Source: Paraburkholderia phytofirmans PsJN (GTDB lineage: Bacteria > Pseudomonadota > Gammaproteobacteria > Burkholderiales > Burkholderiaceae). From it: a DNA stretch of 64,000 bases. Below the pieces are notes generated by a model, which was not told the origin of the DNA, searched no databases, and was given only the letters and a program-made list of their open reading frames with translations. This document shows positions 45,417 through 61,678 of the stretch, piece by piece; within the stretch, counting starts at the first letter, position 1; each line of letters begins with the position of its first letter. A program made the position numbers and the translations under genes. The stretch is from the NCBI RefSeq assembly GCF_000020125.1, contig NC_010681.1, positions 2,666,001-2,730,000 on the forward strand. The letters run 5' to 3'.

Positions 45417-46421
45417 TTAATGCGCGAAAAGCTTCTCCCCTTCTCCACTAATGGCAGCGTCGCTTTCCACCGCCATCGGATCGACGTCGAAGCCCGCGTC
45501 GCGCCAGGCACCGATGCCACCGGAAAGCGGCAATGCAAGTTTGACTCCGGCCCGTCGCAACCGCTTGGCCATCCACGCCGCCGACACGTCGTTTGGACAC
45601 GAGCAATAAATGACGAGAGTCCGGTTTGCCCCATAGTTCTCGACGATCTGCTGAAGTCTCCGTTCGTCTACAAGGACGGCACCCGGAATGACAAACGGAT
45701 CGAGCATCCTGCGCTCGGCAGAGCGGATATCGAATACGATGGGTCGCGGCTTGTTGGCCAGCAAAGCATGTAACTCGTCCACGCTGATCCGCGCCTTCTC
45801 GAGCGCATTTGCCAACAGAACTCTGCGGCCGTACCGATACGCTACATAGAGCACCAGCGCGATGCCAATCACGAGCAACGTATCCCAGCCGAAATGAGAG
45901 ATCAACGCGAAAACACCGTCGATCTGCGAAGCAAACAGTGCGCCGACGGTCGAACCAGCCGAAGCCCACAGCGCCACGCCGGCGCAATCGTACAGAATAA
46001 AAGAACGCAACCTGACTGCCATCGCACCGCATAGCGGCACGGCAACCAGCGATAAGCCGGGCAGGAATCGTGCAACGATCAGCACACGAACTCCCCAGCG
46101 TCCAAAGAAGCACTCCGTTTTGCGGACGCAGGTTTCGCGCGACAGCGACAGTTTGCAAACCATGTGAAGCGTACTTTCACCGTACCGTTTGCCGCCCTGA
46201 AACCAGACCAGATCGCCCAGCACGCCACCAGCCACAGCCGCGCCGACTATTGTCGCGAAATGCAGGAGCATGGGCGACGCACCGTGTGCATTGAGGGCAA
46301 TGCCTGCGCCAACCTTGATCAATGTCGGTATGACGGGCAGTGGCAGGCCAAGCGATGAACCCAGAACATTCAGGAATACGACTAGCACGCCATACCGTGC
46401 GATCAGTTCATTCGACAACAT
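45417..46421 (-). CDS. DedA-family membrane protein fused to a rhodanese domain
   Basis: 334 residues. The DedA/SNARE-associated domain (about 1-200) includes GDLVWFQGGKRYG and the basic FGRWGVRVLIVARFLPGLSL motif with several TM segments. A C-terminal rhodanese domain (about 212-320) keeps the active Cys273 in LVIYCSCPNDVSAA and the entry RPIVFDIRS. DedA proteins act in lipid-carrier/phospholipid recycling; the rhodanese part suggests a redox or sulfur-transfer link. This fusion is known in proteobacteria. There is no operon partner on either side. Confidence 0.9.
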   Translation of the reverse strand: MLSNELIARYGVLVVFLNVLGSSLGLPLPVIPTLIKVGAGIALNAHGASPMLLHFATIVGAAVAGGVLGDLVWFQGGKRYGESTLHMVCKLSLSRETCVRKTECFFGRWGVRVLIVARFLPGLSLVAVPLCGAMAVRLRSFILYDCAGVALWASAGSTVGALFASQIDGVFALISHFGWDTLLVIGIALVLYVAYRYGRRVLLANALEKARISVDELHALLANKPRPIVFDIRSAERRMLDPFVIPGAVLVDERRLQQIVENYGANRTLVIYCSCPNDVSAAWMAKRLRRAGVKLALPLSGGIGAWRDAGFDVDPMAVESDAAISGEGEKLFAH

Positions 46422-46601
46422 GATGCTCTCCCTTCCGGCTTACGTGTACCCGTCTTGACGATCGATTATCGCTTCGCTTGGATCGGGCTGCCTGAAGCGA
46501 GCCCGGCACTGACTCGCATCCTGCCCGTCGAGGTCTGGGCGTTCGACTCATTTTTTGCTGACGAGTCAAAATAAACGCCCCACGACGAGATCCGATAGGC
46601 G

Positions 46602-47873
46602 CTACTTCGCACCTGATAATTCTTTCTCGGCCAACCTCTTTGATTGCGGCGCAATGTCTTTCACCGGGCCGGCGAGATCGTCATGATCCTGCCGATAGCG
46701 GTGAACGTCACGCGTGACAAAACCAGTCTCGTGGCTGGGAATGTCGAACCACTCGGGGTGTCGGAAGGAACGCCGGATGTCCGCGAGCCCGCTCGCCCAG
46801 TGCTCTCGCATCGTACCTTTGCTGAACTCATAGTCCTTGTAATGCCCCTCGAACGCCTTGTTCTTGTAGATCAGGTGTACGACGTTTACCGCGCCGCCGT
46901 CCGCCACTTGCTGCGCCTCGCGAAGCAACGGGTGGGCAAGCCGAATGTTTTCTGGAACGTGCTCGAGCAGTTCCTTGATCATCTGCGCATGTTTCTGCTG
47001 CTGCGACATAAAGGCGGTGATCGCTCTTGTACGGCTCGAATACTGAATGTCTTTGGTACGCTCGCTGACGTCCAGAAAGTCGCCGGGCAATTTGCCGCGA
47101 GAACTCCATAGATCCACCTGGAAAACGAGTGTGTCCTTATGCTGACACTCCTTGATAATCTCGGTGAGCGGCGTGTTGGAGACAAGTCCGCCGTCCCAGT
47201 AAAATTCTCCATCGATCTCGACGGCCGGAAAACCCGGTGGCAGAGCACCGGATGCAATGAAATGCTCGGGGGCCAACCGCATTGCCGAATTATCGAAGTA
47301 GACGAGATTGCCCGTTCGCACGTTGACCGCGCCAACGGACACGCGAACGTTGCCGTTGTTGATTCGATCAAAGTTTGCGTATCTCAGGAGCGTTTCACGC
47401 AATGCGGACGTATCGTAATAGCTGATTTGGTCCGGGCGCTTTTTGCCGAGCGGCGCCAAAGACATGTGCGCGCGCGGTGAGAAGAAGCCCTCCTGACCTT
47501 CCATCAGGGTACGGGTCGCAGCCCACGCACTTGACCATCTGCGGCCTATGTCTTCAAATCCCGGCCACGCCGGAACGCGCGCGCTGGCATGCGAGAAGAA
47601 ATCCAACGGCTGGCTGATCGTGTTCCAGAAACCGCGCAACGCCTCTACTCGATCCGAGGGTGCATTGCCGGCGATGATCGCCGTGTTCAGTGCGCCGATG
47701 GAAATGCCCGAGATGCGAGTGGGCTCGACACCGGATTCGGCCAGGCCTTCATATACGCCGGCCTGATATGAGCCTAAGGCACCGCCTCCCTGTAGCACGA
47801 GTCCGATTTCGTCATACGAGGGGAGTTTCAGGTTTGAAGGCTGCAATAGCTCGTCACGCTGACTCGCATTCAT
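46602..47873 (-). CDS. Patatin-like phospholipase, DUF3734-type C-terminus
   Basis: 423 residues from the ATG at 47873 with AAGGAG upstream. Patatin signature complete: oxyanion-hole GGGALGSYQAGV (29-40), nucleophile Ser58 in GISIG, and catalytic Asp227 in WDGG. The C-terminal region has VVHLIYKNKAFEGHYKDYEF followed by SKGTMREHWASGLAD, as in patatins found beside PHB/3-hydroxybutyrate genes. It is the third gene of an operon with acetoacetate decarboxylase and 3-hydroxybutyrate dehydrogenase (10 bp after the latter). A role in lipid or PHB-granule ester hydrolysis is inferred. Confidence 0.92.
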   Translation of the reverse strand: MNASQRDELLQPSNLKLPSYDEIGLVLQGGGALGSYQAGVYEGLAESGVEPTRISGISIGALNTAIIAGNAPSDRVEALRGFWNTISQPLDFFSHASARVPAWPGFEDIGRRWSSAWAATRTLMEGQEGFFSPRAHMSLAPLGKKRPDQISYYDTSALRETLLRYANFDRINNGNVRVSVGAVNVRTGNLVYFDNSAMRLAPEHFIASGALPPGFPAVEIDGEFYWDGGLVSNTPLTEIIKECQHKDTLVFQVDLWSSRGKLPGDFLDVSERTKDIQYSSRTRAITAFMSQQQKHAQMIKELLEHVPENIRLAHPLLREAQQVADGGAVNVVHLIYKNKAFEGHYKDYEFSKGTMREHWASGLADIRRSFRHPEWFDIPSHETGFVTRDVHRYRQDHDDLAGPVKDIAPQSKRLAEKELSGAK

Positions 47874-47883
47874 GACGGTCTCC

Positions 47884-48666
47884 TTACTGCATGAACCAGC
47901 CATGACTGACCACGATCGATTGGCCGGTGAGCGCGCTCGACTCGAACCCGGCAAGGAATGCAACCGTGTTGGCGACATCGTCGACCGACGTGAATTCGCC
48001 GTCCACGGTGTCTTTCAACATGACGTCGCTTACCACCTGTTGCTCGGATATACCCAAAGCCTTGGCCTGCTCAGGGATCTGCTTATCCACCAGCGGTGTC
48101 CTGACGAAGCCAGGACATACGACATTCGCGCGTACGCCATGCGGACCGCCTTCCTTCGCGACAACGCGAGCGAGACCGAGAAGCCCGTGCTTGGCTGTCA
48201 CGTAAGCGGACTTGAGCTGCGACGCCTCGTGGGAATGTACCGAGCCCATATAGATCACCGCGCCGCCCTTTTTGGAGGCGTACATGTGCCTGATAGCGGC
48301 TTTGGTTGTGAGAAACGCGCCATCGAGGTGAATCGCAAGCATCTTCTTCCAATCGGCAAACGGATACTCTTCGATCCGGTTGACGATCTGAATGCCCGCA
48401 TTCGAGACGAGAACGTCGAGGCTGCCCAGTCGCCGCACCGTTTCAGCCACACCGGCATTGACTGATTCTTCGCTGGTCACATCCATACCGATAGCAATGG
48501 CTTTAGCACCAGTCTTTACGATATCTTCAGCCACCTTCTGCGCGTTCACCAGATTCAGATCCGCAATCACGACTGTCGCGCCGTCTGCCGCGAGCTTTCG
48601 TGCACACTGCTCGCCGATGCCGCTTGCCGCGCCCGTAACGAGCGCGACCTTATCATTCAGTGCCAT
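47884..48666 (-). CDS. bdhA: D-3-hydroxybutyrate dehydrogenase (SDR)
   Basis: 260 residues. Cofactor motif TGAASGIG (11-18) with D36 selecting NAD+, catalytic S142, Y155 and K159, and the 3HBDH-specific stretch [20 protein letters not shown] followed by LGISEQQVV. It interconverts D-3-hydroxybutyrate and acetoacetate. Placed between acetoacetate decarboxylase and the patatin, it fits PHB/ketone-body turnover. Confidence 0.93.
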
Positions 48667-48684
48667 ATTCTCTCCGTGAACGTT

Positions 48685-49464
48685 TTACTGGTTGACCGCG
48701 AGTTTCATCGACTCCGCGGGAGCAAGATAGTCATAGGCCACCTCACCCACATCGAGTGTGAGATGGGCAATGACGTGACGTGCGCCGATAACCCTGCGAA
48801 CGGGCAGATCGGTGACCGACGCGAGAGCGTGCGGATTCAGTTCGAGCGCTGCCGGACCTTCCCACGCGCCGATAACCTCGACATCGCGTAAAAAGAAGCG
48901 GACCAGTTCGCAAATTCTCACCGATCCGTCGACATGGGGAATGACCTTGAGCAAATAGTTCGGCGTGTCGGCAAGCTTGCGGCATTCCGCGGCTGTATCG
49001 AGTGCGCGAAACTTGTAGCCCATCGTTCCTGTAGCGATACGCTGCGTCCCATAGTCGAGCGTGCCGAGCAACGTGTCCTTGCCGTCGACGCATAGCTTGG
49101 GCGAAGCGAGTTTCTTCGGAAACCCCCAGATTTCCCGTCCGCCGGCGATGGGGCCTTCGTCATCCAGAAACATCGCGTGCGTAAAATTGGCGCGATTTCC
49201 ATCCGCGTCGAGAACGGAAATGACCTGCCCGCTTTCCGTGTAGTCGCCGAACCCCGAAGAATCCGGCATACGAATGAACTCGTAGTGAACGATCGGCTTG
49301 TCGACCATCAGCGGCTCGGGAACAACGGCCTCGAGCGCATTCATATCCGTCTCATACGAGATGATGAAGTATTCCCGATTGACGAAACGGAACGGCGGAC
49401 GCGGATAGGCGGGGTTGTGCACCGGCATCGCAAACGCGTTCTTGCGGATATCTTCTTCTGTCAT
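48685..49464 (-). CDS. adc: Acetoacetate decarboxylase
   Basis: 259 residues. [15 protein letters not shown] holds the Schiff-base lysine and its neighbour (K117/K118), as in the clostridial enzyme. [20 protein letters not shown], and [17 protein letters not shown] are also conserved. It decarboxylates acetoacetate to acetone and CO2. First gene of the operon; bdhA follows by 18 bp. Confidence 0.93.
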
Positions 49465-51836: not shown

Positions 51837-53390
51837 TTAGTGCGCGCCGGCCGCCGCGCCGCCATCGACCTTGCCGGGTCTCGTCAGCCAGACCAGCGGA
51901 ATGATCACGATGAAAATCAGTGAAGAGAGCCAGAAAATATCGTTCAGCCCGAGCATCGCGGCCTGTGCATTCAGCGAACGTTCGAAAAACGCCGTGGCCT
52001 GCTCCAGATTGCCGCCGAGTATCGTCTGGAGGTTCGCAATAGCGCTCATGTAGCTAGGGTTATTCACGCTCGACTGTTCGGCGAGTTGCGCATGGTGCAG
52101 AATCGTACGGTCGTTCCAGCCCGTCGAGATCAACGACGTGCCGACGCCGCCCGCGAATACGCGCACGAAATTGGACAGGCCCGCGGCCGCCGGAATCCTC
52201 TCGGGCGACAGTCCCGACAGGATGATCGCGGTGAGCGGCGTAAAGAAGAGTGCCATCGGAATGCCCTGCAACAGCGTCGGCAGCACCAGGGTATAGGGAT
52301 CGACGCTGGTTGTGTAATGCGAACGCATAAAGAACACGCCCGCAAAACCGAGGAACGCCAGAGTCGCGAGTACCCGTGCGTCGGACTTCGGCATGATCTT
52401 CGCCATCACGGGGGCGAGCAGCACCGCGAAGATGCCGAGCGGCGCCGTCACGAGACCGGCATCCACTGAACGATAGCCGAGATAGCCCTGAATCCACTGG
52501 GGCAAGATCACGAGGTTCGAGAAGAATACGGCGTACGCTACCGAGATCGCAATCGTGCCGCCACGGAAATTGCGCCCTGCGAAAAGACGCAGCTCCACGA
52601 TTGGATTCTTCTCCGTGAATTCCCAGATCAGGAAGAACAGGAAGCTGATGCCGGCAACGACAGCGAGTACGCAGATCACCGGCGAGTTGAACCAGTCGAG
52701 ATCCTTGCCCTTGTCCAGCATGATCTGGAGCGACGCGACCCATGCGATCAGTGACAGCAGGCCGACCTTGTCGATGGGAAGCTTGCGCGTCGACGAGTCG
52801 CGGTCCCGATAGATCATCCAGGTCACGGCGGCGGCGAACAGGCCCACGGGAATGTTGATATAGAAGATCCACGACCAGCTATAGCTGTCGGTAATCCAGC
52901 CGCCCAGCGCCGGACCCGCAATCGGCCCGACCGTTGCCGTCATCGCCCAGAGCGAAAGCGCCGTCGAACTTCTTTCCTTTGGATACGAGCCGAGCAGAAT
53001 GGCCTGTGAGAGCGGAATCAGCGGGCCCGCGACCGCGCCCTGCAATACGCGCGCCGCGAGTAGTACGATCAAATTCGGCGCGATGCCGCACAGCCACGAC
53101 GAGAATACAAACAACAGGATCGCGCTCACGAATAGTCTGATCTGACCAACACGCTGCGTCAGCCACCCCGTAAGCGGAATCGCCACGGCATTGGCCGCCG
53201 AGAATAGCGTGATCACCCAAGTGCCTTCGTCGACGGAGACACCGAGATTGCCCGAGATGGTTGGAATGGCCACATTGGCAATGGACGAATCGAGCACGTT
53301 CATGAACGTCGCGAGCGCGACGGCGAGTGTCGCGAGAACCAGTTTGCCGCCTGTCAGCGGCGGCGGTGCAAGTTGCGTCGAGGGATTCAT
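51837..53390 (-). CDS. MFS multidrug efflux transporter, EmrB/QacA (DHA2) family
   Basis: 517 residues from the ATG at 53390, 14 TM segments. ATFMNVLDSSIANVAIPTIS (TM1 motif D1), ARVLQGAVAGPLIPLSQAIL and the TM5 antiporter motif GPIAGPALGGWITDSYSWSW are diagnostic. It pumps drugs with H+ exchange together with the EmrA-like adaptor upstream and the NodT-like channel. The gap to the adaptor gene is 104 bp. Confidence 0.93.
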   Translation of the reverse strand: MNPSTQLAPPPLTGGKLVLATLAVALATFMNVLDSSIANVAIPTISGNLGVSVDEGTWVITLFSAANAVAIPLTGWLTQRVGQIRLFVSAILLFVFSSWLCGIAPNLIVLLAARVLQGAVAGPLIPLSQAILLGSYPKERSSTALSLWAMTATVGPIAGPALGGWITDSYSWSWIFYINIPVGLFAAAVTWMIYRDRDSSTRKLPIDKVGLLSLIAWVASLQIMLDKGKDLDWFNSPVICVLAVVAGISFLFFLIWEFTEKNPIVELRLFAGRNFRGGTIAISVAYAVFFSNLVILPQWIQGYLGYRSVDAGLVTAPLGIFAVLLAPVMAKIMPKSDARVLATLAFLGFAGVFFMRSHYTTSVDPYTLVLPTLLQGIPMALFFTPLTAIILSGLSPERIPAAAGLSNFVRVFAGGVGTSLISTGWNDRTILHHAQLAEQSSVNNPSYMSAIANLQTILGGNLEQATAFFERSLNAQAAMLGLNDIFWLSSLIFIVIIPLVWLTRPGKVDGGAAAGAH

Positions 53391-53494: not shown

Positions 53495-54808
53495 CTAGCC
53501 CGCGCGCTGTCTGGTGCTGCTCCTGTCGCCTGCCTCGCGCTTCGCGGATGGCATCGACGATGCAACGTTGCCTGTGGATCCCGCATGCAACGGGACGATG
53601 TTTCGCGCGATGATCTTCTCGATCTCCGCATCGGCTTGCGCGCCGTATTCGGCGAATACATCCGTGCGATACGACGTCTTCGTCGCCGCGCCGAGTTGCG
53701 GGCCCGTGTTGTCGCGGGTATCCACGTCGACATCCATCGAGAGGCCGATCCGCAGCGGATGCGCTTCGAGTTCCTTCTGATCGAGCTGGATGCGCGCGGG
53801 CAGACGCTGGACAATCTTGATCCAGTTTCCCGTCGCATTCTGCGCAGGCAAGCTCGCAAACGCGCTGCCCGTGCCTGCGGAGAACCCCACCACCCGGCCG
53901 TGATACTTGACCTTGCCGCCGTACACATCGGCCGTCAGCGTGACAGGTTGACCGATGCGCATATTGCGCAACTGGTTTTCCTTGTAGTTCGCATCCACCC
54001 ACACGCCGTCGAGCGGCACAATCGCCATTAACGGCGTGCCCGGCGACACGCGCTGCCCGACCTGCACCGCACGCTTCGCGACATAGCCGGTGACGGGCGC
54101 GGGCAACGTGTTGCGCGCATAGCCGAGATAGGCGTCACGCACTTTCGACGCGGCGGCCTGCACATTGGGATGCTGTTCGATCGTGGTGAGATCGGTCAGC
54201 GCGCGATTAGCTTCGGCCTGTTGATGCGCGGCGTCGAGGGCGGCCTGTGCGGCCGTCACGGCGTCGCGGCTGTGCGCGATATCCTCGGCCGATACGGCGC
54301 CCATATCGGCGACGCCCTGGCGGCGCCGCAGATCGGCCTGCGCGCGGACCAGATCGGATTGCTTCTGCGCCACATTCGCGGCGTAGAAATGGTTGTTCAC
54401 GTACAGGCTGCTCACCTGCCGCACGGTCTGGCCCAGGTTTGCTTCAGCGTTGCCGAGCGCGACCTTCGCGTCGGCAACGTCGAGCGTGACCACCGGGTCG
54501 CCGGCCCTGACGATCTGCGTATCGTCGGCGTTCACCGCGACGACCGTGCCCGTGACCTGCGGCGTGAGTTGCACGAGATTGCCGCTGACGTATGCGTCGT
54601 CGGTTGATTCGTGATAGCGCGCATAGGTCATGTAGTAAGCACCATAGGCCGCCGCCGACATGACGACAGCCACGCCAAGCAGCGCGAGCAGCACCTTGCG
54701 CTTGCGCGGATTGGGTGCGTTTTCAACAGCACCGTTTGCCGTTGCCGCTTCATGCTTCGCGGCCGCCGCGCGGCCCTCGGGACGCTCCGTTGTGTTGGTT
54801 TCGCTCAC
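53495..54808 (-). CDS. EmrA-family periplasmic adaptor (HlyD/MFP)
   Basis: 437 residues starting at GTG 54808, chosen because GGAG precedes it by about 8 nt. One TM anchor at about 37-59 (VLLALLGVAVVMSAAAYGAY). A barrel-sandwich domain follows with STDDAYVSGNLVQLTPQVTG and VNADDTQIVRAGDPVVTLD, a coiled-coil hairpin about 110-205 (KQSDLVRAQADLRRRQ), and the VWVDANYKENQLRNMRIGQP beta-barrel. It links EmrB to the outer-membrane channel. The C-terminal ~20 residues are a basic, Ser-rich tail. Confidence 0.92.
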   Translation of the reverse strand: MSETNTTERPEGRAAAAKHEAATANGAVENAPNPRKRKVLLALLGVAVVMSAAAYGAYYMTYARYHESTDDAYVSGNLVQLTPQVTGTVVAVNADDTQIVRAGDPVVTLDVADAKVALGNAEANLGQTVRQVSSLYVNNHFYAANVAQKQSDLVRAQADLRRRQGVADMGAVSAEDIAHSRDAVTAAQAALDAAHQQAEANRALTDLTTIEQHPNVQAAASKVRDAYLGYARNTLPAPVTGYVAKRAVQVGQRVSPGTPLMAIVPLDGVWVDANYKENQLRNMRIGQPVTLTADVYGGKVKYHGRVVGFSAGTGSAFASLPAQNATGNWIKIVQRLPARIQLDQKELEAHPLRIGLSMDVDVDTRDNTGPQLGAATKTSYRTDVFAEYGAQADAEIEKIIARNIVPLHAGSTGNVASSMPSAKREAGDRSSTRQRAG

Positions 54809-54842
54809 TTCAATTCTCCAGGCGGATTCGGTGGGTAACGGC

Positions 54843-56360
54843 TCAGCGCACAGCGACGACCGGCGCGCCGGGTGCCGTTGCATTGGCGCGCGGCGCCGCC
54901 GCGGGGGCTGCGTTCGGCTCGTCGACGAAACCGCCGCCCAACGCGGACGCCAATGCAATCTGCTGATCCCGGCGGTTCATGCGCAGATTCGCGACGGCCT
55001 GATCGGCGGACAACGCGTTCAAGTCGACGTTAAGGACGGTCAGTTGATTCGTGAGGCCGGCCTTGTACTGAATAAGCGCGAGTTCATCGGCTTGGCGGGC
55101 CGCTTCCTGCGCGGCCTGCGCATCGACAAGTTGCGCATCTGTCGAATGCACGTCCGCGAGTTGCGTGGCGACTTCGTTCAGCGCGGTCACGAGCGTCTGG
55201 TTGTAGGCCGCGACGGCATAATCAAAGTCGGCGTAGCGGCCCTTTAGCTGCGCGCGCAATTCGCCTGCGTCGAAGATCGGCAGGTGAATGGCCGGACCGA
55301 CCGACGCCGTGCGGCTCGCCGCCGTCAGAAAGCGGCCGAAGCCGAACGCATCGAGCCCGATTGCGGCACTGAGGTTGATGTCGGGATAGAACTCCGCTTT
55401 CGCTTCTTTCACGTCGTGCGCCATCGCATCGATGCGCCAACGCGCGGCCACGATTTCCGGGCGGCGACTCACGAGATCGGCGGGCAGATTGTCGGGCAGA
55501 CGCACTTCGTCGCCCAAGCCGAGCGTTGGGCGTGAGATCTGCAAACCACGATCAGGACCCGCGCCAAGCAGCGCGGCGATCTGATAGCGTGTCGTGAGGA
55601 TTCGTCCGTCGAGCGATTTCAAAGTGGCGCGACTTGTCGCAAGATTGGCATGCACTGTCTTGCGCTCCACTTCCGTGTCGAGACCTGTCGCAATTCGCCC
55701 TGCGGTAATGCGGTCGATCCGCTCGCGCTGTGTGATTTCCTTTTGCGCGATGTCGCGCAGCACGTATAGGCGCGCAAGCTGGTTGTAGGCGCGGGCAATC
55801 GATGTGGTCAATGTCAGCTTGACGACTTCCGCATCGGCCTGGCTCGCCTGAGACTGCGAGATTGCCGCTTTCAGCGCTTCGCGGTTCTTGCCCCACAGAT
55901 CGAGATCAAAGGAAGCGCCCAGCACGCCCCTGTTCTCCGTCTGCCATGAGCCGCCGAACGGAGGCGGCAGGAAAGTCGTATTCGACAACTGTTCGCGAGT
56001 GAGCGAATAGCTGGCGTCGACACGCGGCATCGTGCTCGCCTTCGCCGTCTCGGTGTAGGCGAAGGCGGCCGCCACGCGGGCACGCGCCTGGTCGAGCGTC
56101 GGGTTGCTGCTCAATGCTTCGCTGATCAGCGAGCTCAGTTGCGCATCGCCAAACTGGTCAGCCCAATTGGCTGCGGGCCAATGGCCTTGCTCGGCGGGAA
56201 GGCTTTGCCGCGTTGCAAACTGCTGCGGGTCGGCCGTTTTCGCTTCGCCATGGATGCCTGCATAGTTCACGCAAGCCGACAGCGCCGCCGTGAAGATCAA
56301 AGACAGCGCCGATTTCATTGCGCCTGATGCACGCCGTCTCGCGTTTGACTGAATGCTCAT
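54843..56360 (-). CDS. NodT-family outer membrane efflux lipoprotein
   Basis: 505 residues from the ATG at 56360 (alternatives 56372, 56318). That start gives a lipoprotein signal (LSLIFTAALSAC, Cys about residue 29) and an OMF domain: two repeats of the TolC-type helical hairpin (AFAYTETAKASTMPRVDASY, FLTAASRTASVGPAIHLPIF). The gene has no in-frame stop on its 5' side: the open frame continues to an LRAT-like acyltransferase starting at 56942. If translation begins there, the lipobox becomes internal. Ribosome sites before 56360 and 56372 are weak. The adaptor gene begins 34 bp after its stop. Confidence 0.9.
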   Translation of the reverse strand: MSIQSNARRRASGAMKSALSLIFTAALSACVNYAGIHGEAKTADPQQFATRQSLPAEQGHWPAANWADQFGDAQLSSLISEALSSNPTLDQARARVAAAFAYTETAKASTMPRVDASYSLTREQLSNTTFLPPPFGGSWQTENRGVLGASFDLDLWGKNREALKAAISQSQASQADAEVVKLTLTTSIARAYNQLARLYVLRDIAQKEITQRERIDRITAGRIATGLDTEVERKTVHANLATSRATLKSLDGRILTTRYQIAALLGAGPDRGLQISRPTLGLGDEVRLPDNLPADLVSRRPEIVAARWRIDAMAHDVKEAKAEFYPDINLSAAIGLDAFGFGRFLTAASRTASVGPAIHLPIFDAGELRAQLKGRYADFDYAVAAYNQTLVTALNEVATQLADVHSTDAQLVDAQAAQEAARQADELALIQYKAGLTNQLTVLNVDLNALSADQAVANLRMNRRDQQIALASALGGGFVDEPNAAPAAAPRANATAPGAPVVAVR

Positions 56361-56942
56361 TCTCTTGCCCATCAGATAGTTGCTTAAGCGGTTCCGCGTG
56401 GAAAAGCGCGTGGTGCACTCGCCCCGAAGTTGGCGACACAAAGCGCGCGTTAGCCGGTGAACGTCCCGAAGAGCCGGCGCCGCGAAATCACGGCAACCGT
56501 CTTCCGCTAGCGCAAACAGCGTCTTGACACCTGCCCATGGATTCCTCAGGCATCGACGCACCTGCTGACTACGCCCGGACCCCAGCACACACCAAGTACA
56601 GAAGTGTTCGCAGTTATTGGTCAACAATCGATATCGGTCTTCACCGAGACGGGACCGGGCTCTCTCCACGGCTTGGATTCCGCTATAAACAGCATCTGGT
56701 TCGGGCTGAATCGTTATTCCGTTTCCCGCTGCAAAGTCGCGCAGCGCAATATATTCAACGGGACGGCGTTTAACGGATTGAAGAAAGCCTCCGTAGTGAA
56801 TGACGAGTCCATTCCCAGCATATATTCCATGGTGCGTATAGCCTTCCCGCTCACTCACGAGATGAGCGCCGACCTCGATGCGCCCAATTGTTCGGGCCCA
56901 AGCCGGCGACGTTGCGAGGCCATCAATCTCTGCGGTTTCCAT
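56361..56942 (-). CDS. LRAT-like (NlpC/P60 superfamily) acyltransferase domain, open frame continues into nodT
   Basis: From the ATG at 56942 (GGTGG upstream) the frame encodes an LRAT domain: VGAHLVSEREGYTHHGIYAG (catalytic His37/38), VIHYGGF (second His), and NNCEHFCTWC with the nucleophile Cys111. After residue ~130 comes a basic tail. There is no stop codon between it and the NodT gene, so a predicted product of about 700 residues would join LRAT and NodT. The right boundary given here is where nodT starts, not a real stop. Possibilities: a natural fusion, a lost stop, or a sequencing/assembly indel. The domain call is strong; substrate and cellular role are unknown. Confidence 0.8.
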
Positions 56943-57060
56943 GACGAACCACCCATGTCGTATCTGCAATGAATTCAGTACCACCGGCGAGCAGATTCGC
57001 TTTGTCGTCACACAGCGCTGGTAACGCAAGATTCGCGATTCCGGCGTTGCAGATCCGGCA

Positions 57061-57162
57061 TCAGAGAATGCCGCTGAATGAGAGTGCGATGGCAAGTCCG
57101 ACAATGACCGTGGATATCGTGATCCAGCCGACCAGCATCAACAGAGGTGCGAGACGAAACAT
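57061..57162 (-). CDS. 33-residue single-span membrane peptide
   Basis: ATG at 57162 has GGAG 6 nt upstream (CGCTTGTGGAGAGCACT). The product, MFRLAPLLMLVGWITISTVI and then a hydrophobic run ending FSGIL, is almost entirely one TM segment (about 5-29) with only two charged groups, at the N-terminus. The stop is at 57061-57063. It lies 118 bp upstream of the LRAT-like gene on the same strand and may be co-transcribed. Too short for homology; the ribosome site and composition support translation. Confidence 0.5.
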   Translation of the reverse strand: MFRLAPLLMLVGWITISTVIVGLAIALSFSGIL

Positions 57163-57594
57163 AGTGCTCTCCACAAGCGACCGCGACGACCCGTCAACTC
57201 CGTTGAGTCACCGCGCTGCCATGTTGGAAATCATAGGTGCCGGCTTTCTGCCGTGGTAGATACGTATAGGGACACGCTCCGTTTCCGCGTGGGCACCAGT
57301 GAGCGCCGACCGTTATGTATTACGACCGCTACCGCAGGTGTCGCCACTGCCATCTATGCGACATCGCTGCCGACGGCGAGATGCTCGCTGGCGTCTCGAC
57401 CGGCGCATTGATCAATGCGCTCTTCGGTACGCACCCACCTGTTTTTTGATTGGTGCCAAAGAGGCAACACCGTGAGCCCATTTGCACGTCTACCGCACTA
57501 CGCCGCGCCGGCCTACGATACCTTCACGCGGCGCACTGCCGCTTACGACATCCGCTAGCAGTGGATATTTACCGTCGTCGTTCAGGAGATGTTC
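57163..57594. other. 432-bp divergent intergenic region
   Basis: Between the leftward membrane-peptide/LRAT/efflux genes and the rightward AhpD-like gene. It must carry both promoters. A rightward 44-codon frame at about 57315-57449 encodes a Cys/His-rich segment but lacks a ribosome site. No clear palindrome was found by eye. Confidence 0.35.
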
Positions 57595-58074
57595 ATGACC
57601 CAGCGTATCAACTACATCCAGCAATCGCCGGAACTCTTCAAGAAATTCCTCGAATTCAGCAATCAGCTGAAGGACTGCGTGCTCGAAGAGTCGATCCGCG
57701 ACCTCGTTTCGCTCCGGGCGTCGCAGATCAATGGCTGCGGCTTTTGCGTCGATATGCATGTGAAGGAAGCACGCTTGCACGGAGAGCGCGAGCTGCGTCT
57801 GCACCATGTCGCGATCTGGCGCGAGTCGACGCTTTTCGCGCCGCGGGAGCGCGCCGCGCTCGCGTGGACTGAAGCTCTGACGAAGCTTGCCGAACATGGC
57901 GTTTCCGACGATATCTACCAGCACGTGCGCACCCAGTTCTCCGAGAAGGAACTGTCGGACCTGACGTTCGAAGTGATGGCGATCAACGGCTGGAATCGCG
58001 CGAGCATCGCGTTCAAGGCCGTGCCGGGTTCGGCCGACAAGGCATTTGGGCTCGACAAGGCGAATCTCGCCTGA
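57595..58074 (+). CDS. Carboxymuconolactone decarboxylase/AhpD-family protein
   Basis: 159 residues from the ATG at 57595, set by AGGAG 6 nt upstream (ATG 57589 is the alternative). The CxxC active site with trailing His is present: C48-GF-C51-VDMH55 (LRASQINGCGFCVDMHVKEA). The family acts in alkylhydroperoxide reduction or as thiol-dependent decarboxylase. It heads a rightward trio with a cupin and an NDH-2-like flavoprotein, with the LysR paralogue B further downstream. A redox/stress role is inferred. Confidence 0.92.
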   Translation: MTQRINYIQQSPELFKKFLEFSNQLKDCVLEESIRDLVSLRASQINGCGFCVDMHVKEARLHGERELRLHHVAIWRESTLFAPRERAALAWTEALTKLAEHGVSDDIYQHVRTQFSEKELSDLTFEVMAINGWNRASIAFKAVPGSADKAFGLDKANLA

Positions 58075-58143
58075 GCGCTCGGTGTGTTCCGGTCACCGTC
58101 ATCGTCGTCCCGCGCGCGCGTCGCGCCACTTGGAATACACACC

Positions 58144-58551
58144 ATGTCTGCCCTGAAGAACACCGCAATTGCCGTGCTGGTCCTTGCCGGCATGCTCGTT
58201 GGCACGGCTCGCGGCGCCGCTCCCGAAGCCGTCGTCAGCCCGCTATTCAACAAGCAGCTCGACGATTATCCCGGCAAGGAAGCCGTGATGATCACCGTGA
58301 CTTATCCGCCGGGTTCGGTCGATCCCGTGCACCGGCATCATGCGCACGCGTTCGTTTATGTACTCGAGGGTTCGATCGTGATGCAGGTCAAAGGCGGCAA
58401 GGAAGTGACGCTGACGCCCGGACAGACCTTCTATGAAGGTCCGAACAATGTGCACGTGGTCGGGCGCAACGCAAGCCAGACTAAACCTGCGAAGTTCATT
58501 GTGCTTCTTTTGAAGGACAAGGGCGCGCCCGTGCTCGTGCCAGAGAAGTGA
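58144..58551 (+). CDS. Exported cupin-domain protein
   Basis: 135 residues from the ATG at 58144. Signal peptide about 1-23 (AIAVLVLAGMLVGTARG). One cupin barrel: motif 1 PVHRHHAHAFVYVLEGSIVM supplies the His metal ligands and PGQTFYEGPNNVHVV is motif 2. It follows the AhpD-like gene by 69 bp. The substrate is unknown; a periplasmic single-domain cupin. Confidence 0.9.
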   Translation: MSALKNTAIAVLVLAGMLVGTARGAAPEAVVSPLFNKQLDDYPGKEAVMITVTYPPGSVDPVHRHHAHAFVYVLEGSIVMQVKGGKEVTLTPGQTFYEGPNNVHVVGRNASQTKPAKFIVLLLKDKGAPVLVPEK

Positions 58552-58730
58552 GCGCTTTGAGGCAGCGGCGTTTTTATTCGCAAGCGCCCGCCTCGTAGGG
58601 CACCGGCGTTACTCCCGCGATGCGTCACCGAACCGCATTGTGATTAATCAACGCGTCACGAAGCAGAGCATCGGTTGTCGCGAGTTCGCTACTTGGCGTT
58701 GAATCCGCAACCTTCCAATAGAGGCAAATC

Positions 58731-59939
58731 ATGTCGCAGAAGATCCTGATTGTGGGTGCCGGCTTCGCCGGCGTGTGGGGTGCGCTAGGCGCGGCTCGCG
58801 TACTCGATGTTGCAAAGATATCGTCCCGTGACGTCGAGATCACCCTGATCTCACCGAAGCCGGAACTGCAGATCCGGCCACGCCTGTACGAAAGCGAGCC
58901 AGCGCGGATGGCCGCGCCGCTGCTGCCGCTTCTTGAAGCCATCGGTGTGGGCTTTGTCGAGGGTGTTGTCGACGAAATATGCGTTGCTGACAAAACCGTG
59001 CGCGTGGTGGGCGCAAATGGGCAGGAGCGCACGCTCGCGTACGACCGACTGCTGCTGACAAGCGGCAGCAAACTGAACAGACCACCGGTTCCGGGGCTTG
59101 CGGATCATGCCTTTGCCGTCGATCGCAGCGAGGACGCGGTCGTGCTCGAACACCACCTGGAAGAGTTGGCGAAACTGCCGGATTCACGCGCCCGCAACAC
59201 CGCTGTCGTGGTGGGATGCGGCTTCACGGGGATCGAGGTCGCGACCGAGTTGCCTGCGCGAATGCGCAAGCTGTTTGGCCCTGATGCCGCTATCAGGGTC
59301 GTCGTGGTCGGCTCTCAGCCGGAGATTGGCCCCGACCTCGGACCTAATCCTCGCCCGTTCGTAGCTGCAGCGTTCGACTCACTCGGCATCGAAGCCGTGC
59401 TCGGATCGGGCGTCGTGTCGATTGACGCGGATGGGGCTCGCACTGCCTCGGGAGCGCATATCGAGGCCAAGACGGTGATCTGGGCGGGAGGCATGCGCGC
59501 CAGTACATTGGCCGCGCAGGTTTCCTCGCATCTTGATTCGCTGGGACGCGTTGAGGTGGCCTCGGATCTTCGCGTGCCAGAAGCACCCGATGTTTTTGTG
59601 GCGGGCGATGTGGCGCGAGCACGGTGCGACGATGACGGGCGCTACGCATTGATGTCTTGTCAGCACGCTATCGTGATGGGGCAATTTGGCGGACACAATG
59701 TCGCCGCAGACCTGATCGGCATCCCGACTCTCGAATACCGGCAGCCGTTTTATGCCACCTGTCTCGACCTCGGCGAATGGGGTGCTATCTATTCGGAAGG
59801 CTGGGATCGGCAGATCAAATTGACGCACACCGAAGGCAAGGCGCGTAAGCAGATCATCAACACGCAGTGGATCTATCCGCCAGCGCCAAATCGCAATGAG
59901 GCATTGGCTGCGGGGAACCCGCAAGCGTCTTTTGGCTGA
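58731..59939 (+). CDS. NAD(P)/FAD-dependent oxidoreductase, NDH-2-like
   Basis: 402 residues; GAGG 7 nt upstream of the ATG. FAD motif ILIVGAGFAGVWGALGAARV (5-24), second dinucleotide motif VVVGCGFTGIEVATELPARM (about 157-176), and the late FAD contact DVFVAGDVAR (about 285). There is no obvious C-terminal membrane helix, unlike respiratory NDH-2. It probably passes electrons from NAD(P)H to a quinone or partner protein. Third gene of the AhpD-cupin-oxidoreductase set. Confidence 0.92.
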   Translation: MSQKILIVGAGFAGVWGALGAARVLDVAKISSRDVEITLISPKPELQIRPRLYESEPARMAAPLLPLLEAIGVGFVEGVVDEICVADKTVRVVGANGQERTLAYDRLLLTSGSKLNRPPVPGLADHAFAVDRSEDAVVLEHHLEELAKLPDSRARNTAVVVGCGFTGIEVATELPARMRKLFGPDAAIRVVVVGSQPEIGPDLGPNPRPFVAAAFDSLGIEAVLGSGVVSIDADGARTASGAHIEAKTVIWAGGMRASTLAAQVSSHLDSLGRVEVASDLRVPEAPDVFVAGDVARARCDDDGRYALMSCQHAIVMGQFGGHNVAADLIGIPTLEYRQPFYATCLDLGEWGAIYSEGWDRQIKLTHTEGKARKQIINTQWIYPPAPNRNEALAAGNPQASFG

Positions 59940-60640: not shown

Positions 60641-61678
60641 ATGAATCATTCGGACACGTCGGATCGTTGCCTTCGCCTCGGTTTACCGAATCGCGCTGAC
60701 GTGCTGTCCACCAGTATCGCGGCGAGCTACACGGGCATCATGGCATTCATGGCAGTAGCGAGCGAAGGGAGCTTCGCCAAGGCCGGCGAACGTCTGGGCG
60801 TCGGCAGATCGGCCGTGAGCCGCAACGTCCAGAAGCTCGAAGCGCAGTTGAGTACGCGGCTATTCCTGCGCACCACGCGCAACACGCAACTGACGCGTGA
60901 AGGCCAGAGGTTCTTCGAGAACTGCCACCAGGGTGTCTCGCACCTCGTGGAGGCGATGAACGACATGCTCGAGCTTCGCGAGGGACCGCCTCGCGGCCTG
61001 GTGCGCATCAGCTCGACAGTCGGCTTCGGCAGGAAAGTGGTGGCGCCGCTGTTGGAAAAGTTCGTCAAGGCCTACCCCGACATCGCGATCGATCTGCTGC
61101 TCGACGACCGGCCGACGGACTTTACCTCCGAACGGATCGACGTAGCATTCCGCGATGGCCGCATCGAGGATTCGAGCATCATCGCAAGGCAGCTGATTCC
61201 GATGCAGATGGCGCTCTGCGCCGCACCATCCTACGCGGCGGCGCACGGCCTGCCGCATACGCTGGAAGAACTATGCCGGCATGATTGCATCAACTTCCGC
61301 TTCTCCAGCGGGCGGGTTTTCGAATGGGAGTTCAAGCTCGATGGACGTGTACGGAAATACCTGCCGACGGCCCATCTCACATTCAACGATGCCGACCTGG
61401 TCTTGCACGCGGTTCTGCAGGGTTCGGGCATTGCGCAAATGGCCGGCTACCAGGTCAGCAATCACATTGTTGCCAAAGAACTCGTCGTAGCGTTGTCCGC
61501 ATATGCACCCGACGATCGCGGCCACTACATCTGTTACCTGAACCGACAACACTTGCCAACGCGCACCCGTGTGTTTATCGACTTCATGGCCGCCCAGGTC
61601 CGCGCACTCGATCTCAATTGCCTCAGCGGATTTAACGCCACCGCAATCCGGCCTTCGACGGGGGGGATCGCGGCGTGA
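60641..61678 (+). CDS. LysR-family regulator, paralogue B
   Basis: 345 residues, same length as the copy at 41357 with no gaps in a by-eye alignment, and about 85% identical. It shares the unusual N-terminal extension (SIAASYTGIMAFMAVASEGS) and the HTH GRSAVSRNVQKLEAQLSTRL, which differs at one residue. It follows the AhpD-cupin-oxidoreductase set on the same strand, a likely target. Differences cluster in the last third of the effector domain (for example VALSAYAPDDRG versus VALARHVPDDGG), suggesting changed ligand response. Confidence 0.92.
   Translation: MNHSDTSDRCLRLGLPNRADVLSTSIAASYTGIMAFMAVASEGSFAKAGERLGVGRSAVSRNVQKLEAQLSTRLFLRTTRNTQLTREGQRFFENCHQGVSHLVEAMNDMLELREGPPRGLVRISSTVGFGRKVVAPLLEKFVKAYPDIAIDLLLDDRPTDFTSERIDVAFRDGRIEDSSIIARQLIPMQMALCAAPSYAAAHGLPHTLEELCRHDCINFRFSSGRVFEWEFKLDGRVRKYLPTAHLTFNDADLVLHAVLQGSGIAQMAGYQVSNHIVAKELVVALSAYAPDDRGHYICYLNRQHLPTRTRVFIDFMAAQVRALDLNCLSGFNATAIRPSTGGIAA

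Follow-up and report, generated by a model that had tools for sequence, protein, structure and literature searches.

The permuted NlpC/P60 superfamily includes enzymes that act on the acyl chains of lipids, among them the PLAAT enzymes (PMC4624172), LnsA (PMC7387801), and the Tox-Act1 phospholipase and the lipoprotein N-acyltransferase Lnb (PMC12994826); lipid-binding bacterial relatives of the superfamily are described as well (PMC3142127). In the excerpted text on the PLAAT enzymes, PLAAT3 deprived of its C-terminal hydrophobic span loses both membrane binding and activity, and PLAAT5 also has no such span (PMC4624172), so that a missing span does not bar a protein from membership in the PLAAT family.

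Tripartite pumps of the NodT plus EmrA/EmrB type are encoded by consecutive genes for NodT, an HlyD protein and an MFS permease of the DHA2 type. A known case of two proteins that are made from one reading frame is the cytochrome b-c1 polyprotein FbcH of Bradyrhizobium, which is split at an internal signal peptide by ordinary signal peptidase.

The window analysed here is a stretch of 64,000 nucleotides from the genome of Paraburkholderia phytofirmans PsJN (8.2 Mb, 3 contigs), and it contains a locus that can be compared with each of these systems. Its LRAT part (PF04970) shares with PLAAT/HRASLS proteins the fold, the His-His-Cys residues and the NCEHF motif, but it is a bacterial, predicted enzyme without a C-terminal hydrophobic span of its own, and a lipoprotein signal peptide comes next. 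The genes for NodT, an HlyD protein and a DHA2-type MFS permease lie in a row as in other NodT-EmrA/EmrB operons; in contrast to the usual operon, however, the first gene encodes LRAT, shares its frame with nodT and occupies the position that marR genes have in relatives. With LnsA of S. aureus and Lnb/DUF4105, the LRAT part has in common the superfamily, the lipid chemistry and a lipoprotein partner, whereas those proteins belong to other families and, as far as the excerpts of the sources go, are not reported as joined to their substrate, and a cytoplasmic location is expected here. As compared to FbcH, the cut would be made by LspA instead of ordinary signal peptidase. Among the papers listed by searches of the open-licence PMC literature, judged by titles and abstract openings, none dealt with LRAT-NodT or with a link between LRAT and efflux in bacteria. 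The families are known; the arrangement is new.

The joined reading frame and its parts

On the minus strand of the window, an uninterrupted frame runs from an ATG at 56942 to a stop at 54843 and encodes 699 amino acids (ORF listing); the surrounding open frame (54843..57104, 753 amino acids) contains this ATG. The original prediction that no stop separates the LRAT start from the NodT stop is hence correct, and the LRAT motifs THHGIY, VIHYGG and NNCEHF as well as the internal lipobox LSAC, which it had described as intact, are all present. Along the frame, an LRAT/PLAAT-like domain is followed by a 48-codon linker and by NodT with its own ATG, signal peptide and lipobox (Table 1).

Table 1. 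Features of the LRAT-nodT-emrA-emrB region, in positions of the window (L038 is the corresponding locus of Paraburkholderia panacisoli).
Feature	Position	Strand	Basis and remarks
LRAT/PLAAT-like domain, codons 1-146	56505..56942	-	ATG 56942; H37, H49, C111; PF04970
Linker, codons 147-194, open	56361..56504	-	pN/pS 0.99, window vs L038
Internal lipoprotein signal peptide (predicted)	56271..56360	-	sequence; lipobox LSAC residues 221-224, Cys codon 56273-56271
nodT, outer-membrane efflux lipoprotein, own ATG 56360 (residue 195)	54843..56360	-	TIGR01845
emrA-like adaptor, GTG 54808 by eye, GGAGA before	53495..54808	-	HlyD/CusB Pfam on longer frame 53495-54958
emrB-like MFS permease, start near 53390 by eye	51837..53390	-	MFS_1 176.2 bits, longer frame

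The LRAT part scores 74.1 bits against PF04970 (residues 22-122; curated cut-off 24.3), and its best match among PDB sequences is PLAAT2 (HRASLS2; E 5.6e-6), with PLAAT2, 3 and 4 all aligning. The catalytic triad is aligned with that of PLAAT2 and is invariant in all 53 chosen rows, i.e., the window and 52 of the 80 fetched loci, which were also used for the AF2 model. Since AF2 on a 9-row alignment of the whole joined chain reached a pLDDT of 47 only, the LRAT domain was modelled alone (162 residues; pLDDT 78.7 for the best of five models, 66.5 for the lowest), and the top Foldseek matches of this model are PLAAT2 (E 8.7e-7) and PLAAT3 (E 2.5e-6). From residue 110 to nodT, the maximal 19-residue hydropathy is 0.45 in the window and 0.20-1.58 across the 19 orthologous loci described below, and by this measure LRAT has no C-terminal hydrophobic span of the PLAAT1-4 kind. 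By eye, LRAT carries no export signal or signal peptide of its own either, for which reason it is expected on the cytoplasmic and not on the periplasmic side. The NodT part reaches 386 bits with TIGR01845 (cut-off 210) and 136.7 bits with OEP (PF02321) in two stretches.

One trivial explanation would be that the window was misread or misassembled, for example by an indel that opened the frame. Nothing was found that speaks for it, and the separately assembled P. panacisoli locus (L038 = L058) has the same open frame and the same spacing of 582 nt, so that we regard such an error as very unlikely. A single joined locus is unremarkable, since chance alone easily opens such a linker (when that of the window was shuffled 3000 times, 21% of the results were open). 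What is remarkable is the recurrence of the joint together with the frame-keeping in the Burkholderia relatives.

Recurrence in related genomes

A full-query search in 144 genomes of the genus, with eight candidates scored per genome, matched at least eight loci; in a ninth genus locus (L016), LRAT and NodT lie in different frames. Among the matches listed, the frame is open throughout in three of nine genus loci, namely the window, L009 (= L038) and L010 (= L039). The LRAT domain by itself was then used as query in at least 398 genomes of the family, 65 of Burkholderia, 60 of Cupriavidus and 11 of a further genus, and loci fetched under two identifiers (e.g., L058 and L038) were counted once. 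In a class-level survey, PF04970 was present in 5 of 369 genomes.

LRAT lies directly before an orthologous nodT in at least 19 loci (L001, which is the window's own, L038-L045, L066, L067, L190-L196 and L203). Both are joined in one frame in 12 of the 19 (L001, L038, L039, L067, L190-L196, L203), and a stop precedes nodT in the other seven (L040-L045, L066). The alignment of orthologous loci, which the original prediction had proposed as a check, thus cuts both ways: the joined frame recurs, and the case named as speaking against it, relatives in which LRAT ends in its own stop before nodT, is likewise realised in a sister group. The observation of a joined frame is nonetheless stronger than a reader of the single sequence could know.

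All eight Burkholderia loci found are joined, seven of them from genomes with an ortholog among the 65 searched and one from plasmid pBPJTT of B. pyrrocinia, whose gene table gives a single CDS of 702 amino acids (WP_258285227.1) under the name "efflux transporter outer membrane subunit". This entry and the continuous frame would suit a stable bifunctional fusion, in which LRAT remains on NodT and works at the channel. Such a fusion is improbable, as the signal peptide and the LSAC lipobox between the two parts are kept in 19 of 19 orthologous loci, LRAT lacks an export signal (by eye) and, moreover, would take the N-terminus that lipoproteins have acylated. Of the product of about 699 residues that was originally proposed, the joined frame is hence real and recurrent, whereas a mature channel of 699 residues is unlikely and cleavage is expected because the signal peptide and lipobox of NodT are intact inside the chain.

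The joined Burkholderia loci form one clade in both the LRAT and the NodT tree (support 100/100). The remaining four joined loci with an orthologous nodT group together in the LRAT tree (96/90) and are not resolved as one clade in the NodT tree; the joined label needs two changes on the former tree and three on the latter. In one genome, that of Cupriavidus respiraculi (L072, 7001-9118), LRAT shares a 705-aa frame with a different NodT (38% identical), which possibly represents an independent joining, although in a single genome chance may also account for the open frame.

The pump operon

An outer-membrane factor, an HlyD adaptor and an MFS permease with matching order and direction make up an Emr-type tripartite set in one predicted operon, and the emrB relative on pBPJTT is annotated as DHA2 family. 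The claim that LRAT heads such an operon held up well beyond the window, as the arrangement is seen in Paraburkholderia, Burkholderia, Trinickia and one Cupriavidus, and in more than one gene order: three pump layouts are headed by LRAT, with nodT first (19 loci), with emrB first (L065, L074, L204) or with the divergent pump of L072. Since LRAT genes precede pump genes in several genera, the role of bacterial LRAT enzymes becomes testable.

LRAT is, however, not tied to a pump everywhere, as ten LRAT-clade loci of the genus Cupriavidus are without a pump gene in the same direction within the stretches examined (L063, L070, L075-L078, L198, L199, L201 and L202, the last examined over a stretch of 4.3 kb only); in L076-L078, a pump is present on the opposite strand. 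The original idea that efflux is coupled to the modification of lipids or acyl groups, which draws on the family and the operon, has to be set beside these orthologs without a same-direction pump. One could further imagine that NodT is the substrate of LRAT as a lipoprotein acyltransferase, irrespective of whether both are made joined or separately. NodT is a predicted lipoprotein, and N-acylation of lipoproteins is described for LnsA with LnsB (PMC7387801) and for Lnb/DUF4105 (PMC12994826) in the excerpts of these sources. We give little credence to this possibility, as LRAT has no signal peptide and would consequently face the cytoplasm, and the ten Cupriavidus orthologs have no same-direction pump adjacent.

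Origin of the joint

Ten nodT loci without LRAT were examined (L046-L054, L057). Of the upstream frames in the four loci listed, those of L046, L047 and L054 are marR-like and that of L052 is not; both L046 upstream frames match MarR (Pfam). Six of these ten LRAT-less operons have the inverted repeat TCTGATAGGTCAGA directly ahead of nodT (by eye; e.g., L046:6936-6971); it is degraded in LRAT-type loci and is a possible MarR operator.

The linkers were compared with the marR 3' end in a test based on single-base shuffles, which included nine marR-type stretches (L052 omitted) and 17 linkers, those of L067 and L195 being too short, and for which p-values are uncorrected. The match beat all 300 shuffles in L040, L041, L044, L045 and L194, and p was 0.003 in L043 and L203, 0.007 in L190, 0.01 in L039 and L042, 0.027 in L191 and 0.047 in L196. 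By the same test, no marR relic was detected in L193 (p 0.08), L038 (0.17), L192 (0.18) and L066 (0.45), nor in the window's own linker (L001; 0.11). L039-L045 align to marR with few gaps or none, whereas the match in Burkholderia is gapped and that of L190 sits elsewhere, so that the Paraburkholderia loci are the only ones for which the relic is firm. In our own reading of the alignments, the stop of the stop clade falls on a Glu codon of marR. These comparisons indicate that LRAT replaced the marR regulator that precedes nodT elsewhere and that the linker holds a piece of marR in several relatives. Read in this way, the case shows how two genes can become joined when a regulator gene is lost.

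Linker and probable frame-keeping

With pN/pS values of 1.14 in seven Burkholderia loci, 0.99 for the window versus L038 and 1.19 for six loci, a coding constraint on the linker amino acids is ruled out. The corresponding values are 0.28 (Burkholderia) and 0.25 (window versus L038) for LRAT and 0.18 and 0.19 for NodT, and they point to purifying selection on both parts in Burkholderia. In the stop clade, the codons behind the stop have a pN/pS of 0.58, although they are not read from LRAT.

The 153-nt linker of the seven Burkholderia loci shows neither gaps nor stops at a p-distance of 0.231, as against 28 pairwise gap openings at a p-distance of 0.214 in the emrA-emrB spacer (about four gap events by eye) and 44 such openings in the 200 nt upstream of LRAT in the same loci; the short nodT-emrA spacer (35 nt) is also free of gaps. 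The eighth Burkholderia locus, L195, was omitted from the linker tests because its linker is deleted. In neutral simulations, the probability that all seven linkers are stop-free was 0.02-0.06 depending on the starting sequence, with means of 0.025-0.042 in three settings; for the variable first 90 nt alone it was 0.15, which counts against frame-keeping.

A distance of 591 nt between LRAT and nodT is common to 13 of the 19 loci, joined and stop loci alike, and the distance alone is hence weak evidence. Among joined loci, the shifts from this value are -9 (L001, L038), -126 (L067) and -141 (L195), all multiples of three, whereas they are -2 (L045) and +11 (L066) in stop loci. When four linkers were shuffled, 15-26% of the results were open. 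Taken together, the data on gaps, stops and spacing favour frame-keeping in Burkholderia, as far as sequence comparison can tell, while the small clade of the window has too few loci for a judgement.

Start sites

In relatives that have an LRAT stop, nodT begins with the matching ATG. This ATG is retained in 11 of the 12 joined loci; in L195 it is replaced by TTG, and the own ribosome site is better. The DNA preceding the nodT ATG is conserved at all codon positions, as would be the case for a start site.

Upstream of LRAT, the anti-Shine-Dalgarno pairing amounts to -9.5 kcal/mol in eight of eight Burkholderia loci, to -5.5 to -6.5 kcal/mol in the remaining four joined loci and, for the seven loci with a stop, to -1.8 to -5.8 kcal/mol (mean -3.7), a contrast in which the ranges overlap and the loci are related, i.e., not independent of kinship. 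The ribosome site of nodT itself reaches -1.9 to -3.5 kcal/mol in 18 of 19 loci and -5.7 in L195. In marR-type operons, it is -3.1 to -4.6 kcal/mol in five of ten, with L051 at -3.2 and L054 at -0.2; the computation misplaced the nodT start in L048, L053 and L057. As the site is about as weak in marR-type operons, its weakness is by itself no sign that NodT depends on the LRAT start. Weak as it is, this site may additionally serve for starts of nodT.

It could hence be that LRAT and nodT are two ordinary neighbour genes, with NodT made mostly from its own ATG, the LRAT stop lost by drift and the long chain tolerated as a by-product. The LRAT stop in seven of 19 loci, the nodT ATG of the joined loci, a nodT start site no weaker than in marR-type operons and an unconstrained linker of a kind that shuffling readily opens all fit this explanation, while the seven Burkholderia linkers without gaps and stops and the length changes of joined loci, three of three being multiples of three, do not. 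We regard it as a serious possibility that falls short of even odds.

Proposed mechanism

The best reading, to which we assign a probability of about 0.47, is that translation from the LRAT start yields an LRAT-preNodT precursor that would be split at the internal lipoprotein signal peptide, with translation, cleavage and topology all deduced from the sequence. In its favour we count the frame, its recurrence, the signs of frame-keeping in Burkholderia, the intact catalytic residues and signal peptide, the operon linkage, the marR relic in some relatives and the pairing upstream of LRAT, which tends to be stronger in joined loci; against it, we count the stops in seven of 19 loci, the unconstrained linker, the own nodT ATG, the conserved start-site DNA and the no-stop probability of 0.15 for the first 90 nt.

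According to this precursor reading, an LRAT gene would have displaced marR ahead of a nodT-emrA-emrB operon and ended in frame with nodT, so that ribosomes starting at LRAT would produce a single LRAT-linker-preNodT chain. The NodT signal peptide in mid-chain would direct this chain to the Sec/lipoprotein path, where the LSAC lipobox would be processed by Lgt and LspA. One product would be mature NodT, which would reach the outer membrane as the channel of the Emr pump; the other would be the LRAT enzyme at the cytoplasmic face of the inner membrane, anchored by the left-over signal peptide. There it might use the acyl chains of phospholipids, either for acyl transfer or as a phospholipase A, and its activity may be linked to the cargo of the pump. 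An LRAT anchored by its tail would resemble PLAAT1-4 with their C-terminal hydrophobic tail, and the need of PLAAT3 for its span suggests, by analogy, that the cleaved NodT signal peptide could serve as the hydrophobic span of LRAT.

That the chain is a bacterial polyprotein, in which one signal peptide exports NodT and, after LspA cleavage, anchors the enzyme and thereby fixes a 1:1 ratio, is a more doubtful proposition, for which we see clearly less than even odds. In a non-adaptive variant, a ratchet would operate: with a weak start of its own, NodT may become dependent on the LRAT start, and any closing of the frame would then no longer be tolerated. If the precursor reading is true, the locus would encode a bacterial polyprotein cut at a lipoprotein signal peptide in its interior, and a PLAAT-like lipid enzyme would be directly tied to a drug-efflux pump.

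Neighbouring genes

The window encodes a LysR regulator at 60641-61678, relatives of which (66-91% identical) occur near LRAT. Such a relative was found within the stretches examined in 15 of 23 loci tried; these 15 belong to Paraburkholderia, Trinickia and Cupriavidus and include a pump-less Cupriavidus locus; L070 has one at 33%, and none was seen in the five Burkholderia or the two marR-type loci tried. Given these LysR relatives near LRAT, it may be speculated that a LysR-LRAT unit took the place of marR in Paraburkholderia.

Two more LRAT genes are present in one genome (L055:6587-6964, 59% identical; L056:6941-7354, 51% identical), and the 14-kb stretches around them hold no match to the pump proteins of the window. 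Beyond the pump, on the same strand, the window carries genes for a VTT+rhodanese protein, a patatin with DUF3734, an SDR and an acetoacetate decarboxylase (45417-49464); the VTT+rhodanese gene recurs near LRAT in nine of 23 loci tried. A small hydrophobic frame of about 33 amino acids (57061-57162, minus strand; by eye) lies ahead of LRAT. On the plus strand, carboxymuconolactone decarboxylase, cupin and NADH-dehydrogenase-like genes follow at 57589-59939, the first two of which adjoin the LRAT operon in five of five Burkholderia loci tried.
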